Shown here piece after piece: positions 52,829 to 61,552 of a DNA stretch of 64,000 nt. Made by a program: the position numbers and the translations under genes. Each line of letters starts with the position of its first letter. Within the stretch, counting starts at the first letter, position 1. The notes below the pieces were generated by a model. That model was not told where the DNA came from, did no database searches, and was given only the letters and a program-made list of their open reading frames with translations. Source of the stretch: Rhodoglobus sp. (GTDB lineage Bacteria; Actinomycetota; Actinomycetes; Actinomycetales; Microbacteriaceae); NCBI GenBank assembly GCA_025464445.1, contig JAODLY010000028.1, positions 27,439-91,438 of the forward strand, written 5' to 3'.

Positions 52829-54008
52829 GCCGATCGAGCCCGTCGAGATCCGGGCGGAGGAGGTGGCGCGCTCGTCCTACGGACGACTGCTCGCCGTGCT
52901 CGCCGCCCGCACCGGCGACATCCCGGCCGCGGAGGATGCCCTCGCCGACGCCTTCGAGCGGGCGCTGCGCACCTGGCCGGTGAACGGCATCCCGGACAAC
53001 CCGGAGGGCTGGCTCGTTACCGTGGCGAAGAACCGCTGGCTCGACGAACTGAAGCGCAAGCGGCCCTCGTCGGTCGAGCCCGTCGAGACCATCGACCCAG
53101 ACACCATCCCCGACAAGCGCCTCGAGCTCATGTTCGTCTGCGCCCACCCCGCGATCGACGCGGCGATCCGCACGCCGCTCATGCTGCAGGTGGTGCTCGG
53201 GTTCGAGGCGTCCGCGATCGCTGCCGCCTACGCGATGCCGACGGCGACCATGGCCCAGCGGCTGGTGCGGGCGAAGCGCCGGATCCGGGATGCCCGCATC
53301 CCCTTCACCGTCCCCTCCCGCGACGACATGCCGGCCCGCCTGCCCGCTGTGGTCGAAGCGGTCTACGGCGCCTATGCGATCGACTGGATGCAGGTCTCCC
53401 CACCCACCGTCCGCGACTCCCTCGCCGCGGAGGCCCTCTACCTCGCCCTCCTCCTCGCGACCCTCCTGCCCGACCCCGAAACCCTGGGCCTGGCCGCCCT
53501 GCTCTCCCTCTCGATCGCCCGCACCTCCGCGCGCATAGTCGACGGGATGCTCGTGCCGCTCGAATCCCAGGACACCGCCCTCTGGGACCACGCGCTCACC
53601 GCCCAGGGCGAGGCGCTGCTGCGGGCGGCGCACGCCTACTCCCGTATCGGCCGCTTCCAGCTCGAGGCCGCCATCCAATCGGTGCACTGTGCTCGCGCGG
53701 TCTCGGGTACTACGGACTGGGTCACGCTGCGCACGCTCTACACCGGACTCCTCCAGGTCGCCCCGACCCTCGGCGCACAGGTGTCGCTCGCTGCCGTGGT
53801 CGCCCATACCGACGGGCCCGCCGCTGGACTCGAGTCACTCGACGCCTTGGGAGAGCCCGCTTTCCAGCCCTACTGGGCAACCCGCGCGCACCTCCTGGCC
53901 GAGCTAGGGCGGCGGGATGACGCGGCTCACGCCTACGCGAAGGCGATCAGTTTGACGACTGATCAGTCTGTCCGAAGGTATATTCGCGCAGTCTCGACAG
54001 CAAGGTGA
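52788..54008 (+). CDS. RNA polymerase sigma factor (ECF, DUF6596 type)
   Basis: GRLLAVLAARTGDIPAAEDALADAFERALRTWPVNGIPDNPEGWLVTVAKNRWLDELKRK; overlaps YCII gene; start codon uncertain. Confidence 0.88.
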   Translation: MCISPTGSGTKLARPIEPVEIRAEEVARSSYGRLLAVLAARTGDIPAAEDALADAFERALRTWPVNGIPDNPEGWLVTVAKNRWLDELKRKRPSSVEPVETIDPDTIPDKRLELMFVCAHPAIDAAIRTPLMLQVVLGFEASAIAAAYAMPTATMAQRLVRAKRRIRDARIPFTVPSRDDMPARLPAVVEAVYGAYAIDWMQVSPPTVRDSLAAEALYLALLLATLLPDPETLGLAALLSLSIARTSARIVDGMLVPLESQDTALWDHALTAQGEALLRAAHAYSRIGRFQLEAAIQSVHCARAVSGTTDWVTLRTLYTGLLQVAPTLGAQVSLAAVVAHTDGPAAGLESLDALGEPAFQPYWATRAHLLAELGRRDDAAHAYAKAISLTTDQSVRRYIRAVSTAR

Positions 54009-54115
54009 GCTACAGCTGGCAGAAGTCGCCGTATCGGCGACCGCCAAGGGTGGCTCATTTGGGTGCGGTGCTTGAGGCAATATGCTGGTGCTCCATACCG
54101 ATGTAGGGAGCTTTC

Positions 54116-55171
54116 GTGGTCCCTGAGTCGGAATATGATCACGAACTCACGTGGATTTTGAAGGCTGCTTCGACATCTGCGCAGCGCTTGCAGTTTGATG
54201 AGCTGCTGAGGAAGACAGATGGGGCGTTTCCAAGCGATGTGCTCAGCGCCGCCCGACGCTTAGACCTTCAAATTGACTTCGCTGACCACGAGGCCTTGGA
54301 AGTTCGTGACGGACCGGATCCTTCACCAGCCCAAGGTGAGTTCTATTTCGATCGAGCGACCGCCAAGTTTTTAGCGTCCGCGCTGATGGGCAGAGTCCTG
54401 CTGCTAGGCGCACCATCTGTGGCCGCCGAATTGACGCATCAAGATCGACCGCTGACGCTTGTCGACTCCAGCCCTTGGCTAAACGAGCGATTCGGAATCA
54501 CTGGCTCTCTTCGAGTTGGCACGGTTGAGACCTTTCGGGCTGGGGCGGCCTTTGACAGCGCTGTGTTGGACCCGCCGTGGTATTTCCCAGAAATGACCAC
54601 TTGGCTAAGCATCGCTGCCAACGCGGTGAAGGCTGGTGGGACAATCTTGATGCCGCTCTTGGGCCGACTGACCCGCCCCTCAGCCACTCGGGATCGCATA
54701 GAGATCCTAGAAATGGCTTCACGCGTCGGATCAGTGAGCGTCGTGGAGAATGTCGTCGCCTATGACAGCCCGCACTTCGAAAGACGAGCGATAGCTCGTT
54801 CGGGCGGGCGCCTGGGTCGGGAGTGGCGACGCGCCTCGCTGCTCAAGATTTCGCGAAGTGACGCTGACATCGAGCCCCTTCTAGTCCGGAACCAGGATCC
54901 CTCGACCGTCTGGGTGGACCGACGAATCGGTCAGTCAATCGTTTCCATCCGAAGAAAAAACCCTGAATCTGGCACCCGACCCGTCGTCCATTTGCTGGAC
55001 GGGATAAGCCGTCGTGATCCTCGTATCGCAGCTTCAAACGTCTGGACATCTGAGAGTACGGCGGCCGTCGTTGACCGTCCGGAGGTGCTACTTGACGAAC
55101 TCTCGCAAGTCGAGTCCTCTTGGAGCTCGGCGACAAGGGCCCTCCTGGACCGATTGGAGATTGACCATTGA
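54116..55171 (+). CDS. DPPW-motif methyltransferase-like protein (MT-A70/N6-adenine-MTase-like)
   Basis: RVLLLGAPSVAAELTHQDRPLTLVDSSPWL...FDSAVLDPPWYFPEMTTWLSIAANAVKAGGTILMPL; GTG start with tagggag SD. Confidence 0.6.
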   Translation: MVPESEYDHELTWILKAASTSAQRLQFDELLRKTDGAFPSDVLSAARRLDLQIDFADHEALEVRDGPDPSPAQGEFYFDRATAKFLASALMGRVLLLGAPSVAAELTHQDRPLTLVDSSPWLNERFGITGSLRVGTVETFRAGAAFDSAVLDPPWYFPEMTTWLSIAANAVKAGGTILMPLLGRLTRPSATRDRIEILEMASRVGSVSVVENVVAYDSPHFERRAIARSGGRLGREWRRASLLKISRSDADIEPLLVRNQDPSTVWVDRRIGQSIVSIRRKNPESGTRPVVHLLDGISRRDPRIAASNVWTSESTAAVVDRPEVLLDELSQVESSWSSATRALLDRLEIDH

Positions 55172-56562
55172 TTGTCTTGCGCTTTTCAAGTCTGGATGAC
55201 GAAACGATTTCCGCGCATGACGCACTCATCGCTGATGAGGGATTCGCTTGGTGGGGATGGTGGAAAAAACGGCACGAACCCTGGCCGGACTCGGGTACTC
55301 TCAGCCGCATTGGACGAGCCCGACAGATTGGACTTGTCGACCGCGCCGCTGAGTTGTATTACGTCGCCTCATCGCGGGACATGGTGCACGCATCCGGCGA
55401 TGTCATCTCATCACCAGACTCGGCGCATTCCCCACGCTATTACTCGGACGCTCTCTTGCCGATGTGGCTCAAGTTCGTTCGAATAGAGAGATTGAGCGCC
55501 AACGAATGGGCAGAGAAGTTTGGGCGTGTCCCAGAGGGCGACTCAACATTGTTCGAGCAATCGCCGCAGGAGCTAAGCCGCTCGGCAGGCGGCGCTCCAG
55601 TGCGCTTTTCAAATGCGCCAGAAAGTCGAACCGCGATCCTTCACATATCGGACTTGCACTTTGGCGATGACCACGCGTATTCGGGGCAGCACACAATCGA
55701 CAACTCTATCGAGCTGCTAGATAACCTCGTCCGCGATCTTCCGTCTGCGCCGGCAGTTGTTGTCGTTTCTGGGGATTTGACTACCAGAGGAGGGCAAGCG
55801 GGCTTGGACGCTGCGCTCGAATTTCTCGAGCGGCTTGCCCTGAGACTGCAACTTCCGCGGGACAACATCATTGTCGTACCGGGCAATCACGACATACTCG
55901 TCGACGACCTTGACGACCGTAAGGACTTCGATAACGAAGGGCCATTCAGAACTTTCGTTGAGGACTTTTACGGTGAGCCTGTCGCTTTGGAGAGGATCCA
56001 CCTCGTCACGTTGTCGGACGGTCGCAAGTTTGCGTTCGGGTTAGTGAACTCGTCGCGACCCCGAACGTCGCGGCTCATGGATTACGGGTATGTAGGGCGA
56101 GACCGGGCAGCTCCAATAATGGATCTGCTCGCTCGACTGGCCGATCAGGGCTGCATCACGTTCTTTGTCCTGCACCATCATCTGCAGTCCGCGCAGGGAT
56201 TCGAGGAGCCGATCATCAACCGCCCAGTCAGCATCACTCTGGATGCTGGTGAGCTTGTTTCGTCCGCAGCTCGCAGCAACGTCACAGCGATACTGCACGG
56301 GCATCAGCATTTACCGTTTGTCGGCTCCGCCACTCGCGCAGCGGAGTTCTCACACAGCGGCCCAACTCCACTTCCTCCCACTACTCGGGCGGTCCCAACT
56401 CTCGGAGCGGGATCGCTGTCGGCAGGGATAAGTCGACTTGGCGACGAACTGCGCGACAACTCATTTTCGTTCTATGAGGTACTTGAGAACGAGTTACGAA
56501 TACGCGTCTATCGACTCAATCCAAATCAATACAGCTCGTTGATCTGGGACTTCCATATTTGA
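55168..56562 (+). CDS. Metallophosphoesterase with about 150-aa extra N-terminal domain
   Basis: HISDLHFGDDH, VVSGDLTTRG, VPGNHD, VLHHHLQ, ILHGHQHLP; TTG start overlapping previous stop. Confidence 0.85.
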   Translation: MIVLRFSSLDDETISAHDALIADEGFAWWGWWKKRHEPWPDSGTLSRIGRARQIGLVDRAAELYYVASSRDMVHASGDVISSPDSAHSPRYYSDALLPMWLKFVRIERLSANEWAEKFGRVPEGDSTLFEQSPQELSRSAGGAPVRFSNAPESRTAILHISDLHFGDDHAYSGQHTIDNSIELLDNLVRDLPSAPAVVVVSGDLTTRGGQAGLDAALEFLERLALRLQLPRDNIIVVPGNHDILVDDLDDRKDFDNEGPFRTFVEDFYGEPVALERIHLVTLSDGRKFAFGLVNSSRPRTSRLMDYGYVGRDRAAPIMDLLARLADQGCITFFVLHHHLQSAQGFEEPIINRPVSITLDAGELVSSAARSNVTAILHGHQHLPFVGSATRAAEFSHSGPTPLPPTTRAVPTLGAGSLSAGISRLGDELRDNSFSFYEVLENELRIRVYRLNPNQYSSLIWDFHI

Positions 56563-56684
56563 GCGCGCTAATCGCAATCGCCATGGTGGTTTTGCCGAGA
56601 GCGTCACGGCGAGCGGATGATGGTCCAGGCCTCTGCGAAAGCGGTAAGTCGACGACCGATGCAGCGCTACCTCGAGGGCGCCGA

Positions 56685-57344
56685 CTAGATAGCTAGCTCT
56701 TCGAGAAATTCTTGCCCTCGCCAGCGTTCGACCCGCACAACGTGATCAAGAATGTCATCAACCCCACCAATCACGCAGAGTTCCGCAACATCATTGGCGG
56801 CGGCCACAGCCCTCCGCCGCGGCGGGTGCGGATACTGTCCAATCGTCTTGAAGGTATCGCTACCTCTAGGCACGGGGTTGTAGATCGTCGATCCCGAATT
56901 GATCCTTGAAAGCCGCACAGATTGTGCGTGTACGGCCAAGAGACTAGCCGTATCAACCACTATGACGGTCTGAGCCTGGGCGCGATATGGCCCGGCATTC
57001 AGAAGGCCCATTAGCCGCTTGGGTTGAAGCCAGAAGAAAACTCGGCTATTAAGCATCTCCAGCCACTGAACTGGCGTCATGTCAGTGAGGCATCTGTCCA
57101 ATGCGGACATCCGTAGCGGCTTCTGATCTCTGACCACCGCTGTTCCGTACCTAGGGGAGCTAATCTCAACGGACTCAGGCCGTCGTTCGTGAGTCAGAAT
57201 TTCTCGTTCAGCATGAGGGACTTCGAAGAGTCGTAACAATCGATCTGTACTCAGAAGGCCATTCGCCTTTATGGACGGCCACGATCCATCTTCGGCCATG
57301 TGGTACAAGAAGGGATACAAACTGACCAAGTCGCCCTGAATCAA
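56685..57344 (-). CDS. DUF7002/DarT-like (putative ADP-ribosyltransferase-fold) protein
   Basis: LYHMAEDGSWPSIKANGLLSTDRLLRLFEV...SRVFFWLQPKRLMGLLNAGPYRAQAQTVIVVDTASLLAVHAQSVRLSRINSGST. Confidence 0.5.
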   Translation of the reverse strand: MIQGDLVSLYPFLYHMAEDGSWPSIKANGLLSTDRLLRLFEVPHAEREILTHERRPESVEISSPRYGTAVVRDQKPLRMSALDRCLTDMTPVQWLEMLNSRVFFWLQPKRLMGLLNAGPYRAQAQTVIVVDTASLLAVHAQSVRLSRINSGSTIYNPVPRGSDTFKTIGQYPHPPRRRAVAAANDVAELCVIGGVDDILDHVVRVERWRGQEFLEELAI

Positions 57345-57395
57345 GTTATTGCCCCTTTGGCCTGTGCGGAATGAAATTGCACTTTGTTCAACTAT

Positions 57396-59060
57396 CTACC
57401 ACTCCCGTCGATCGATCATGCTTCGCGCGTCGAACCCCGTGCACACGAGGGAGACGGGAGCGCCGGCAACTCGCTCAACCTCCTCGACAAAGTGAATCGT
57501 CTCGGTAGTCAATTGATCAAACCGCCGTGCATTCTGATTCGCTGCGTCGAGATAGTCCGCAAACGTGACCGCGATGTCCGTCGCCCCGTTTAGTTCGGAA
57601 GCACGCCGTAGCAGCTCCCAATCGAACTCCGCGACCCGACGCTTGCTTCCGCTGACGGATCCCTTCTCTCGCTCACGCAGCATTGCCTCGTCGAGGCTCG
57701 CTCGTTTCGCGATGACGTCCCAATCGATCTCCTGCGACATTTGGCCGGAAGATGATGATGGCGGGTTGCCGACGCGGATCGGATATGTCCGAACAACCAT
57801 GACAACCCGACGAAGGCGGTGAGGCCCAATTCCAGCCTCTGCTAGACATGCGCTAGTCGTCGTGTCTCGACTAGTCACCCAAGGGTAGAAGCCATGAAAG
57901 AGACTGAGTAGTGTTCCCTGTGTCCCTTCCAGCATGACCTTCTTGTGGGCGCGGAAGGCCATCTCCAAGATGGCTCCGGTTGGCCGAATATATGCAGCAA
58001 GTTCGGTGACGTTCTTCGCGAGCCTCACTGGGGGTGCGACCTCAGAGCTCCTACCCATAATCCTCCGGGCTGCCGCAGCGCCACCTCCTTTGCCCGTGGA
58101 GCCAATGTCCTTCTTCATCTGTTCCTCAGCCTGCCGGTCTTCTGGCTCGATGACCATCGCTTGAGGATCTATGAACAGCCGACCCGATTCGACGCCACAA
58201 TCAGCTATCTCTTGTAGAAGAACGTCCAAGTCGAGAGTCGCCCCAGGCCCGATTAGCAGGATCGCACTCGAGTTCGCGAGAGTTCCTGAAGGAAGCAGGC
58301 GGTGAGTGTAGGGGTCGGGCTGCGTCGGCACTTTGTGTCCCGCATTGGGACCACCAACTCGCATCAGAACGTCGTATTCGTTGGCGAGGTGGTAGACGAC
58401 ATTGCCCTTACCTTCGCTTCCATACTGCCCACCTATGAAAACGTCAACTAATCGCTCGGACCGAGATGAACTGAGGCCCAAAGCCGCGATTGCGCGAGCT
58501 AAGACGTCCCTCTCGGAACTACGCGAAGTATCAATGGATACGTCAGCATCCACTTCCAAGCTGGACACATTTGCCTCAGTCGGGTTTGAAGCAACCTCTT
58601 CGTAGGTTGAGAGTTCAACCAGACCACTGTCATCCCGGGACTTGTATCTCGCCGCCAGTACTTCCGCCGGAGCGTGAACGTGAATGTGGGTAACTCTTGA
58701 CGGGAAAGCTGAGCGAAGCGCGCCGATCTGGCCAACGATTCGCACCGCATCGACGACGACTAATCCGGTGCCAGCAGCGCCGCTAGCGATGAGTTCAGCA
58801 ACCTCATCGGCGACCCACGCTCCCCCCGTTTCTGTGTCGAGTTGCTCACCGAATTTCTGCATTGCGCGCCGTTCCGCATCTAACGTCTCGCCGCGGGATA
58901 CAGCGACATCGCGCATGAGATCCTGTGTACGCACATAAGCAAGGCCAAACATGTCAGCCAGATTCCTGCCAAGCGTTGACTTGCCCGCTCCAACTGGCCC
59001 GCTTAGAACGACGATGCGGGGTGTCACCTCCTCGGGGACGACCCACATCGGCTTAGCCAT
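57396..59060 (-). CDS. Fusion: N-terminal P-loop nucleotide kinase + adenylosuccinate synthetase (PurA/PurZ-like) domain
   Basis: RIVVLSGPVGAGKSTLGRNLA; DVFIGGQYGSEGKGNVVYHLA...GGPNAGHKV...IGSTGKGGGAA...EGTQGTLLSLFHGFYPWVTSRDTTTSACLAEAGIGP...YPIRVG; ORF can extend to 59108. Confidence 0.85.
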   Translation of the reverse strand: MAKPMWVVPEEVTPRIVVLSGPVGAGKSTLGRNLADMFGLAYVRTQDLMRDVAVSRGETLDAERRAMQKFGEQLDTETGGAWVADEVAELIASGAAGTGLVVVDAVRIVGQIGALRSAFPSRVTHIHVHAPAEVLAARYKSRDDSGLVELSTYEEVASNPTEANVSSLEVDADVSIDTSRSSERDVLARAIAALGLSSSRSERLVDVFIGGQYGSEGKGNVVYHLANEYDVLMRVGGPNAGHKVPTQPDPYTHRLLPSGTLANSSAILLIGPGATLDLDVLLQEIADCGVESGRLFIDPQAMVIEPEDRQAEEQMKKDIGSTGKGGGAAAARRIMGRSSEVAPPVRLAKNVTELAAYIRPTGAILEMAFRAHKKVMLEGTQGTLLSLFHGFYPWVTSRDTTTSACLAEAGIGPHRLRRVVMVVRTYPIRVGNPPSSSSGQMSQEIDWDVIAKRASLDEAMLREREKGSVSGSKRRVAEFDWELLRRASELNGATDIAVTFADYLDAANQNARRFDQLTTETIHFVEEVERVAGAPVSLVCTGFDARSMIDRREW

Positions 59061-60435
59061 TAGTTGTTCGCGCAGCGTAGGGGATACTCGGTCGCGTGTG
59101 GACGACAACCTTCAGCCCCGCATCCACCAAGTAGGACACAACAAGCCTCTCCACTTCATCCCAACGACCGCCGGCTTGGCCAGCGCCGAGCCGCGGTAGG
59201 TGAATTTCAGCCTGACGTGTCGTCGCCAGGTCAGCGAGTTTTGCCAGAGACTCTTCAAGCGCGTCGTAACGAAGCCGAGGACCCCCACCGCCGAATCCTT
59301 CTTGGGCAACGAGGCTCGCTACCCCAACCTTCCGATCGGCGATATCCCGCTCAACAAAGTGAAGCCCGCCAAGGTCAAGGTTTCGCGGGGAGGCAATCGT
59401 CCAAGCGCGGAATGCCTGTGCAAAGTCCGGGAACGCTTTGGCAAGGGTCCCGGCCGCACCCACGTGATTCCAGGTTCGGACAGAGCCTGATACGACATGA
59501 GCAAAGATGACCGGCGTTCTTCCCTCGGCCACTTCGAGTAGGTCGGAGACGACGAAGTCCAAGCCGGAGATTGCGAGTCTCTCATCCTCGCGCTCCAAGA
59601 GGGCAAGGACTCGGGGCCACTGGCTGCCCGGGTAAGCGGGAACTCCCACGCACTGCAAGTAGAGCTTTTCTTCGGCGATCTCCACCGTCCCTCGGACGGT
59701 TTGACCGACGGCCGCGCAATTGAGCAAGGGTTGGATATTTTCAAGCAGATCACCATGGCCGATGGCGGCCAGCAGATCCGACTCTCGGGCTCTGGCCGAG
59801 CTGGCCACATAATCTACCCGCATGGCAAGAGAAGCAAGATGCGTTGGTCGCGATGTCGCGAGCATCGTGAGCGACCTCGGCGTCGCTTCCACTAGCCGGC
59901 GAAGAAGCGCTTCAGTCGATACATCCCACTTACGGCGCGTTTCCATGATGAAGTCAATGTCCGGGTCAACCGTGAGCAGCCCCTCGACCGCCTGGCCAGG
60001 GATTAGCAAATCTGCGGCAATTACGTCGCAGACGAGCTCCAGCTCCCAATCGTCAGTTGCGACATCGGCGATTGATCCAGCCGCAGTTCGGTGACGTGGG
60101 CGATCTGCGACGTCAGCAAAGCGTGAGTGCGCGATCTCGTGAGCAATGCTGAAACGCAAGCGACCGCGTGGGCGGCTCGGGTTGTATTCGATTACAAGAT
60201 CTTGCATCTCAGTTGCGATGATTCGCGCATCCAAGAGGTCGTCCTTGGGGCGGAGTTGTATACCCAAAGCACTAGCAAGGCCAAATACGTCAACAGGCGG
60301 CCCGGAGAGCCCCTGCTGGTTCGCCAGCTCGACCAACTGCTCCGCCACGTTGTGCGCATGCTCCAGTGGATCCTGCCCATCCGAAAAGGCAAGGACCGAG
60401 TGATTCGACCAACTGTGAGCAATCGTCTCTGACAC
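59053..60435 (-). CDS. ImmA/IrrE metalloprotease + macro-domain fusion
   Basis: RLRFSIAHEIAHSRFAD; C-terminal FAHVVSGSVRTWNHVGAAGTLAKAFPDFAQAFRAW...IHLPRLGAGQAGGRWDEVERLV. Confidence 0.75.
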   Translation of the reverse strand: MSETIAHSWSNHSVLAFSDGQDPLEHAHNVAEQLVELANQQGLSGPPVDVFGLASALGIQLRPKDDLLDARIIATEMQDLVIEYNPSRPRGRLRFSIAHEIAHSRFADVADRPRHRTAAGSIADVATDDWELELVCDVIAADLLIPGQAVEGLLTVDPDIDFIMETRRKWDVSTEALLRRLVEATPRSLTMLATSRPTHLASLAMRVDYVASSARARESDLLAAIGHGDLLENIQPLLNCAAVGQTVRGTVEIAEEKLYLQCVGVPAYPGSQWPRVLALLEREDERLAISGLDFVVSDLLEVAEGRTPVIFAHVVSGSVRTWNHVGAAGTLAKAFPDFAQAFRAWTIASPRNLDLGGLHFVERDIADRKVGVASLVAQEGFGGGGPRLRYDALEESLAKLADLATTRQAEIHLPRLGAGQAGGRWDEVERLVVSYLVDAGLKVVVHTRPSIPYAARTTNG

Positions 60436-60462
60436 AAGGCAAAGACTAGGGCTATCCCACGA

Positions 60463-60984
60463 CTATTCGAGGAATAGTGGCGGTTGATCCAAGAGAACTC
60501 TGCGAACGTCCGGGGGACTGTACGTCGCTGGCTTCAGGACTTTTCCATCACCCCTCATCAGAGGACGGCCATCGGCGCCGAGCTTACTCATGTTGGCACG
60601 GTGCACTTCTCTCAGAACTGCGTCAAGATCGATTCCATAAGTCAACGCAGAGCCGTAAGCCACATAAACGATATCGGCGAGAGCGTCGGCGATCGCCACA
60701 AGATCGGCGTTCTCCACCGCGTCAGCAAACTCCTCAAACTCCTCCCGAAGAAGTTCCACTCTCAAACTGCCCAGGCCCCCTGCGACGTTCTGTTGCGGCC
60801 TGGTCTCGATCGGTAGGTTGAAAGCAAGATGGAACTCAGCCACGGAAGCGATCGCTTCACTGGCACCGTTCGAACGACGGGGACGTCGAGCCACCAGCCG
60901 TGGCGGCAGCCCGAGGTCGAGCTCCGGCTGGGGCGCCACAGGAGAAGGATCAACCTTCGCGACAAGGTTGATCACGCTACGCAT
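60463..60984 (-). CDS. MazG/HisE-like nucleotide pyrophosphohydrolase
   Basis: VAEFHLAFNLPIETRPQQ...RVELLREEFEEFADAVENADLVAIADALADIVYVAYGSALTYGIDLDAVLREVHRANMSKLGADGRP; start uncertain (GTG 60843 also plausible). Confidence 0.8.
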   Translation of the reverse strand: MRSVINLVAKVDPSPVAPQPELDLGLPPRLVARRPRRSNGASEAIASVAEFHLAFNLPIETRPQQNVAGGLGSLRVELLREEFEEFADAVENADLVAIADALADIVYVAYGSALTYGIDLDAVLREVHRANMSKLGADGRPLMRGDGKVLKPATYSPPDVRRVLLDQPPLFLE

Positions 60985-61068
60985 CTTTGGATCATCGCAC
61001 AGAACGGCAAACCGCCTGCTCAGTCTCAACGGGAGCATCAGTGTTTGAGATGGACCGGTGTGCACTGG

Positions 61069-61086
61069 GTCCCGCCGCGGCGGGAC
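61069..61086. repeat. Perfect 18-bp palindrome near the right edge of the island
   Basis: gtcccgccgcggcgggac. Confidence 0.8.
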
Positions 61087-61137
61087 GGCGAACCGGTGTT
61101 CAGCGTCTTCTGGCACGACACGAAGATAGCGCGGAGC

Positions 61138-61521
61138 TCAGATCATGCCGCGATGGTTGGTCGTCTTCTTGATGCTGCCGTCTGGTGCGTAGTAGGTCCA
61201 CGTGCCGGACTTGACCCCGCGGTCGAAGTGGCCCTCGTCGATGAGCGCCCCCTCGCTGGTCCAACGCTTCCAGAGGCCGTGCTTCTCGCCCTCCAGGAAG
61301 GCACCCGTCTGCAGAAGCCCGCCGCCCTGCCGAAACCAGACACATTCGGCGGTCTGCTGCCCATGGTCATAGTGGAATTCCGACCGCACCGAACCGTCGC
61401 GAAAGTGATGCCGCCACTCCCCATCACACTCACCGGCCACATACTCGCCGGAGATGATGCCACCGTGCGGGTCGGGCTCCTCCCAGAAGCCGATCTTGCG
61501 TCCCTCATCATCGAGGTTCAT
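61138..61521 (-). CDS. YwqK/MORN-variant repeat protein
   Basis: GEYVAGECDGEWRHHFRDGSVRSEFHYDHGQQTAECVWFRQGGGLLQTGAFLEGEKHGLWKRWTSEGALIDEGHFDRGVKSGTWTYY. Confidence 0.75.
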   Translation of the reverse strand: MNLDDEGRKIGFWEEPDPHGGIISGEYVAGECDGEWRHHFRDGSVRSEFHYDHGQQTAECVWFRQGGGLLQTGAFLEGEKHGLWKRWTSEGALIDEGHFDRGVKSGTWTYYAPDGSIKKTTNHRGMI

Positions 61522-61552
61522 GCTGCTCCCTACTGCTGCGTCCAGAGCCGCG

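Follow-up and report, generated by a model that had tools for sequence, protein, structure and literature searches.

Within the PurZ clade, a cell-encoded branch, in which the catalytic Asp of PurA is replaced by Ser and the enzyme is fused to a nucleoside-monophosphate kinase, is established as part of a conserved mobile operon that also encodes a protein with a predicted DarT fold. The gene described here lies in a 64,000-nucleotide stretch of a Rhodoglobus sp. contig, referred to as the window (Table 1). Z synthesis is known from phages, and the findings suggest that production of 2-aminoadenine may extend from viruses to cells, possibly for defence. The best explanation, in which slightly more belief than doubt is placed, is that the fusion protein is a bifunctional PurZ-clade enzyme and that the Z-nucleotide pathway it serves works with a conflict module of the DarTG-like kind.

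Table 1. Features of the kinase::PurZ locus and its surroundings in the window.
Feature	Coordinates	Strand	Remarks
kinase::PurZ-like fusion gene	57396..59060	-	554 aa from likely ATG at 59060
P-loop nucleoside-monophosphate-kinase domain, N-terminal	58470..59018	-	UPF0200/AdkA-like; dNMP-kinase PHROGs
PurA/PurZ-fold domain, C-terminal	57402..58451	-	
GSEGKG signature, PurA catalytic Asp to Ser	58404..58421	-	within GGQYGSEGKGNVV
GGPNAGH motif, kept	58335..58355	-	
TFADYLD nucleotide-base motif	57546..57566	-	Asp equivalent to PurA D333 kept
MazG/PRA-PH-type nucleotide pyrophosphohydrolase	60463..61116	-	first gene of the operon; neighbour in 14/88 cellular loci
IrrE/CapP-like Zn-peptidase (HEIAH) fused to SCO6735/TARG1-like macro domain	59053..60435	-	neighbour in 56/88 cellular loci
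DUF7002 protein	56685..57344	-	51 nt downstream of fusion gene; neighbour in 86/88 cellular loci
Low-GC island, ~7 kb	54001..61500	.	GC 0.56-0.60 vs 0.63-0.72 elsewhere in the window
Metallophosphoesterase related to anti-phage DS-9	55168..56562	+	same island, co-travelling, not core
Methyltransferase-like partner of the metallophosphoesterase	54116..55171	+	same island, not core

The open reading frame of the fusion gene is open to position 59108 (57396-59108, 570 aa), and Pfam and NCBIfam models divide this 570-aa frame into a P-loop kinase of the UPF0200/AdkA-like type (residues ~30-200) and a C-terminal PurA/PurZ domain, matched as adenylosuccinate synthetase (~221-569). Because the 350-aa C-terminal half matches Adenylsucc_synt (E 4.9e-56) and the archaeal-type PurA model (E 1.7e-86, the best NCBIfam model), chance can be excluded for GSEGKG. 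An AlphaFold2 model of the fusion protein was built with 45 relatives (mean pLDDT 90.9); all structure Z values given here refer to predicted models only. In structure comparison, the closest fold to the modelled C-terminal domain was P. horikoshii PurA (5k7x, Z 45.4), and PurZ0 (7vf6) and phage PurZ (6tnh) gave Z 40.8 and 40.2, respectively. The nearest structure to the modelled N-terminal domain was the AMP-bound adenylate-kinase relative SSO1041 (3lw7, UPF0200; Z 19.5), which was also matched in a profile search (E 1.4e-10). Matches of the kinase domain to phage dNMP-, guanylate- and thymidylate-kinase PHROGs were obtained as well.

An earlier note on this DNA had reported a PurZ-like GSEGKG signature with Ser in place of the catalytic Asp. 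The signature is found exactly as described on the minus strand, inside GGQYGSEGKGNVV, and the longer stretch around it reads GGQYGSEGKGNVVYHL. The GGPNAGHKV and VTFADYLDA readings are likewise present, and GSTGKG had been correctly given for a Vibrio-phage PurZ (phage J2). In the alignment to PurA and PurZ, no other acidic residue replaces the missing Asp. Ser was invariant in 45-50 aligned members of the fusion family, and Asp was present in all housekeeping PurA whose motif was read. Scans with a Ser-motif pattern are biased toward Ser; the tblastn search of plasmids, which used no motif pattern, provides an unbiased check, and all eight fusion copies obtained in this way carry Ser. The TRVGxGPFPTE loop of PurA is replaced by PIRVGNPPSSSSGQM, which is similar to PIRV(A/G)N...SG of phage PurZ. 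This PIRV...SG loop and GPNAGH match PurZ/PurZ0 in the alignment, and GP precedes NAGH as in PurZ0. Since Ser23 of S-2L PurZ adjoins the 2-amino group of dGMP (PMC8342488), the Asp to Ser change would suit a guanine ring and not a hypoxanthine one.

The TFADYLD motif had been judged closer to PurZ, which holds in part: the motif is a PurA/PurZ hybrid, since it keeps the base-specificity Asp (E. coli Asp333 position), where phage PurZ has N or Q. In PurA, Asp at this guanine-binding position goes with GTP as the donor. Because it is kept in TFADYLD, GTP rather than ATP is predicted as energy donor of the window enzyme. The position of Thr273 of S-2L PurZ is occupied by Gly in the window protein, as in PurA, and by Thr in some members of the fusion family. 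Both the Gly and the GTP-type Asp are counted against the Z-nucleotide explanation.

Phylogenetic analysis was performed on 84 sequences; the tree is unrooted, and speaking of PurA and PurZ sides assumes a root on or inside the PurA side. A 100/99 branch separated all Asp-type PurA, including the short archaeal-type and deazapurine-cluster forms, from every Ser-type sequence (phage PurZ, PurZ0, viral homologues and the fusion family). The fusion family formed a single 100/99 clade apart from phage PurZ and PurZ0, in which the nearest relatives of the window protein are actinobacterial fusions (73% identity to one from Mycobacterium gordonae). With Ser at the PurA Asp13 position and its grouping with PurZ/PurZ0 apart from Asp-type PurA, the protein belongs to the PurZ clade in the broad sense, and it lacks the catalytic Asp13 of housekeeping PurA. 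It scored below the NCBIfam cut-offs for PurZ (NF038379, 202.5 bits vs 300), which is counted against the preferred explanation, and for PurA (TIGR00184, 204.8 vs 395.55; NF003295, 290.2 vs 368). Besides the fusion, the host encodes a normal, full-length housekeeping PurA, and a separate full-length one is present in 19 of 20 other carrier genomes tested. A housekeeping PurA or a sequencing oddity is ruled out by the host's own PurA elsewhere and the family-wide Ser. In a Synergistaceae genome (G017, locus L045), the fusion was the sole PurA-family match, and the housekeeping PurA is missing or unassembled there.

The fold closest to Pyrococcus PurA and the best NCBIfam model would also suit a divergent PurA with IMP as its substrate and adenylosuccinate still as its product, serving as a back-up that is phage-resistant or regulated. 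This is considered highly improbable, since the catalytic Asp is absent family-wide, the family groups away from all Asp-type PurA and a housekeeping PurA is present. Sequence and phylogeny together support the proposal of the earlier note that the PurZ-like active site probably accepts a (d)GMP-type substrate and not IMP; (d)GMP as substrate and a Z nucleotide as product are likely for the window enzyme.

A pattern scan of genome contigs gave 414 related loci, the best 80 of which (79 distinct) are fusions that span many bacterial and some archaeal phyla, from Actinomycetota to archaea. Eight full-length fusions were identified on plasmids by tblastn, including rhizobial plasmids. In pattern-free profile searches, the fusion was found among 396 Actinomycetota only in the window's own genome, with a short form in one further genome, and among 247 Acidobacteriota in one genome, with short forms in two. 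Because so few of these genomes carry one, the fusion is sporadic. That it is a phage gene was considered and rejected: the surrounding genes that were read are chromosomal, and no full-length fusion was found in 50,697 phage records, but seven are present in IMG/VR contigs (L094-L100). A plasmid cluster of Rhizobium leguminosarum (L012:7483-15831) encodes FolE, a short Asp-type PurA, PurB, QueE, QueC, an IMP dehydrogenase-like protein and nitrile hydratase, and resembles a toyocamycin/sangivamycin-type pathway for 7-deazapurine nucleosides.

The minus-strand operon of the window consists, in this order, of MazG, IrrE-macro, kinase::PurZ and DUF7002, with a 27-nt gap, an 8-nt overlap between the stop of the IrrE-macro gene and the start of the fusion gene, and a 51-nt gap. 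In the 86 of 88 cellular fusion loci with DUF7002, the two genes are adjacent, and in 83 they are on the same strand. A YfbR-like HD protein and an uncharacterised 450-aa protein were found in 15 of the 88 loci, and PurB in seven; in six genomes the PurB of the cassette is a second copy, the housekeeping PurB being present too. The MazG and HD neighbours were ruled out as orthologues of MazZ and DatZ: they share common superfamilies only and are not close relatives, which is counted against the Z-nucleotide explanation. The 450-aa protein (L005:11134-12492 and equivalents) has no Pfam match, stands in the place of IrrE-macro in 15 alphaproteobacterial cassettes and is perhaps ATP-grasp/PPDK-like, as judged by eye. 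A small MORN-repeat protein, YwqK-antitoxin-like, is encoded immediately upstream of the window operon on the same strand (61138-61530). An uncharacterised protein family (KNQYFGDxNDYxKY...) was observed beside fused (nine loci) and unfused PurZ cassettes (L031:10308-11039, L042:10311-11042, L288:9033-9701).

For DUF7002 no DarT family match was obtained by sequence. The structures nearest to its AlphaFold2 model (pLDDT 94.9) are DarT1 (Z 10.6) and DarTG (Z 10.1), followed by Tpt1/KptA (Z 8.7), and residues H15, R55, R72, D73, N99, F103, Y120, N149, G151, F165 and E188 are invariant. DUF7002 is therefore modelled as a DarT-like ADP-ribosyltransferase with putative catalytic activity; the model has the DarT/ART fold of a DarTG toxin, a fold-level likeness that by itself shows no function. 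In the IrrE-macro protein, HEIAH is kept. The nearest matches of its macro domain are SCO6735 (5e3b; E 1.4e-43 in a profile search) and macro domains related to it, TARG1 being more distant. The curated DarG model gave 17.7 bits, below its cut-off of 250. The macro domain appears to be without the TARG1 catalytic lysine, which is counted against the preferred explanation. SCO6735 cleaves thymidine-linked ADP-ribosylation of DNA (PMC9411070).

The Tpt1/KptA neighbours of DUF7002 and the AMP-bound relative of the kinase would also agree with a ribonucleotide pathway, in which GMP is converted to 2-aminoadenosine phosphates as a signal, toxic nucleotide or RNA modification precursor, while RNA or small molecules are the targets of DUF7002, as for Tpt1/KptA. 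Ribo and deoxy substrates are not separated by sequence. However, in relatives of a second cassette type (type B) PurZ is accompanied by genes of deoxynucleotide type (dNK, DCD), and the PIRV-SG loop resembles that of dGMP-specific PurZ (PMC8342488), and this pathway is regarded as improbable.

Type B cassettes contain an unfused Ser-type PurZ and a dUTPase/DCD-like protein (L326:2523-6617, L327:3272-7550, L288:6215-9701, L013:7296-11937). In two Acidobacteriota genomes, a stand-alone kinase from the family of the fused one (profile E 2.4e-15 and 5.1e-13) precedes the unfused PurZ, overlapping it by 4 nt in one of the two, and a dCTP-deaminase/dUTPase-like gene comes after PurZ. Kinase and PurZ are thus linked even where they are not fused. 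An RNase_H_2 protein is an additional component in Acidobacteriota, a YfbR-like HD and a ThiF-like protein on a Sinorhizobium plasmid, and one actinobacterial genome (L288) combines PurZ with the same dUTPase-like family and a deoxynucleoside kinase. In PurZ0 phages, dUTPase-like enzymes (DutZ) hydrolyse dATP and dGTP (PMC12884076). No DUF7002 match was found among the ORFs compared in type B cassettes, and DUF7002 occurs without PurZ in three relatives, the latter being counted against the preferred explanation.

These two observations, the composition of type B cassettes (PurZ, kinase, dUTPase-like gene) and the MazG and HD dNTP-hydrolase-type neighbours would all be expected of a nucleotide-pool poison, by which (d)Z is made and (d)GMP/(d)GTP drained until phage replication is starved or mis-fed, the ADP-ribosyltransferase/macro pair being a separate co-travelling toxin-antitoxin module. 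The near-constant position of DUF7002 beside the fusion makes chance co-travel hard to credit, and the poison explanation is held to be rather unlikely.

In the low-GC island, the metallophosphoesterase gave 282 bits with the DS-9 model, below the cut-off of 420, and the metallophosphoesterase/methyltransferase-like pair was also found near the cassette on three rhizobial plasmids (L004:10407-12784, L006:4716-7171, L008:5326-7688). HsdM and HsdR were each present in 8 of 88 cellular loci, counted without a random-region control, and restriction, SIR2, Abi, MADS, capP or PsyrT genes are close by in other carriers. In two relatives of the same genus, DUF7002 without PurZ is located ~5-6 kb from gatB (L322:7947-8663, L323:7043-7777), as in the window, and gatB may flank a defence hotspot; no empty site was obtained from the same genus, and the gatB flanks were not syntenic.

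The Z-nucleotide pathway coupled to a conflict module is the best explanation because of the family-wide Ser with PurZ-type residues, the tree and the separate housekeeping PurA; because of the second PurB, the MazG, YfbR-like HD or PurB neighbours and the kinase beside unfused PurZ; and because of the DarT-like model of DUF7002, the SCO6735-like macro domain, the low-GC island, the plasmids and the defence-gene neighbours. From these data we infer a substrate, a pathway direction, a role in defence and a link between Z and the transferase. Most likely, the C-terminal domain would convert (d)GMP and aspartate, using GTP, to N6-succino-2-amino-(d)AMP. PurB, either that of the host or the dedicated second copy of some relatives, would remove fumarate to give 2-amino-(d)AMP ((d)ZMP), which most likely would be phosphorylated by the fused kinase. 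MazG in the window, or the YfbR/DatZ-like HD protein in alphaproteobacteria, might supply (d)GMP or trim competing dNTPs. The whole horizontally moving operon would act as a conflict module, anti-phage or toxin-antitoxin, using Z nucleotides and NAD-dependent ADP-ribosylation together. The Z nucleotide could alter replicating DNA or the dNTP pool, and the ADP-ribosyltransferase could attack nucleic acid or a nucleotide, an attack that the macro domain would reverse in the uninfected cell. Any account of the joint action of Z and ADP-ribosylation, and of its target, is speculative. A further-reaching idea is put forward tentatively and with more doubt than belief: bacteria and archaea would encode a Z pathway of their own that includes a fused PurZ-dZMP kinase and forms the metabolic arm of an immune system based on DarT-like ADP-ribosylation, and cells would thus mark or poison DNA by a base change of the phage type.

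If true, the wide occurrence in cells of a PurZ joined to the kinase that likely acts after it would mean that Z nucleotides can be of cellular making, and phage PurZ could then possibly have come from cells. Purine base chemistry would also be tied to ADP-ribosylation-based immunity. In a 2026 survey the PurZ group consisted only of phage proteins and four archaeal sequences (PMC12884076). Within the open-access literature searched, no published description of the fusion or operon system was found, and no paper placed an adenylosuccinate synthetase in a system of anti-phage defence or of ADP-ribosylation, an earlier in-silico mention being possible.

Compared with known systems, the family shares with phage PurZ/PurZ0 (phiVC8, S-2L, Archimedes) the Ser for Asp, the PIRV...SG loop, PxNAGH, the side of the tree and the fold (Z ~38-41), but it is cell-encoded, kinase-fused, forms its own 100/99 clade, keeps the GTP-type Asp and has no DatZ/MazZ orthologue; the window protein is below the NCBIfam PurZ cut-off. 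The archaeal-type short PurA (PRK04293, P. horikoshii 5k7x) is similar in length, fold and best NCBIfam score, whereas the window protein has Ser for Asp, other loops and a separate clade, and remains under that model's cut-off (290 vs 368). The kinase shares fold and profile match with UPF0200/AdkA-like SSO1041 and is related to phage dNMP kinases, but is fused to PurZ and ~19% identical. The neighbouring metallophosphoesterase is related to the anti-phage DS-9 metallophosphatase (DefensePredictor, PMC13092281); its partner, however, is methyltransferase-like and not HAD, and it lies outside the core. As in DarTG, a DarT-fold protein and a SCO6735/TARG1-type macro-domain protein are encoded together in the window operon, but DUF7002 gives no sequence match to a DarT family, the macro domain is fused to an IrrE peptidase, and the PurZ-kinase is placed between the two.
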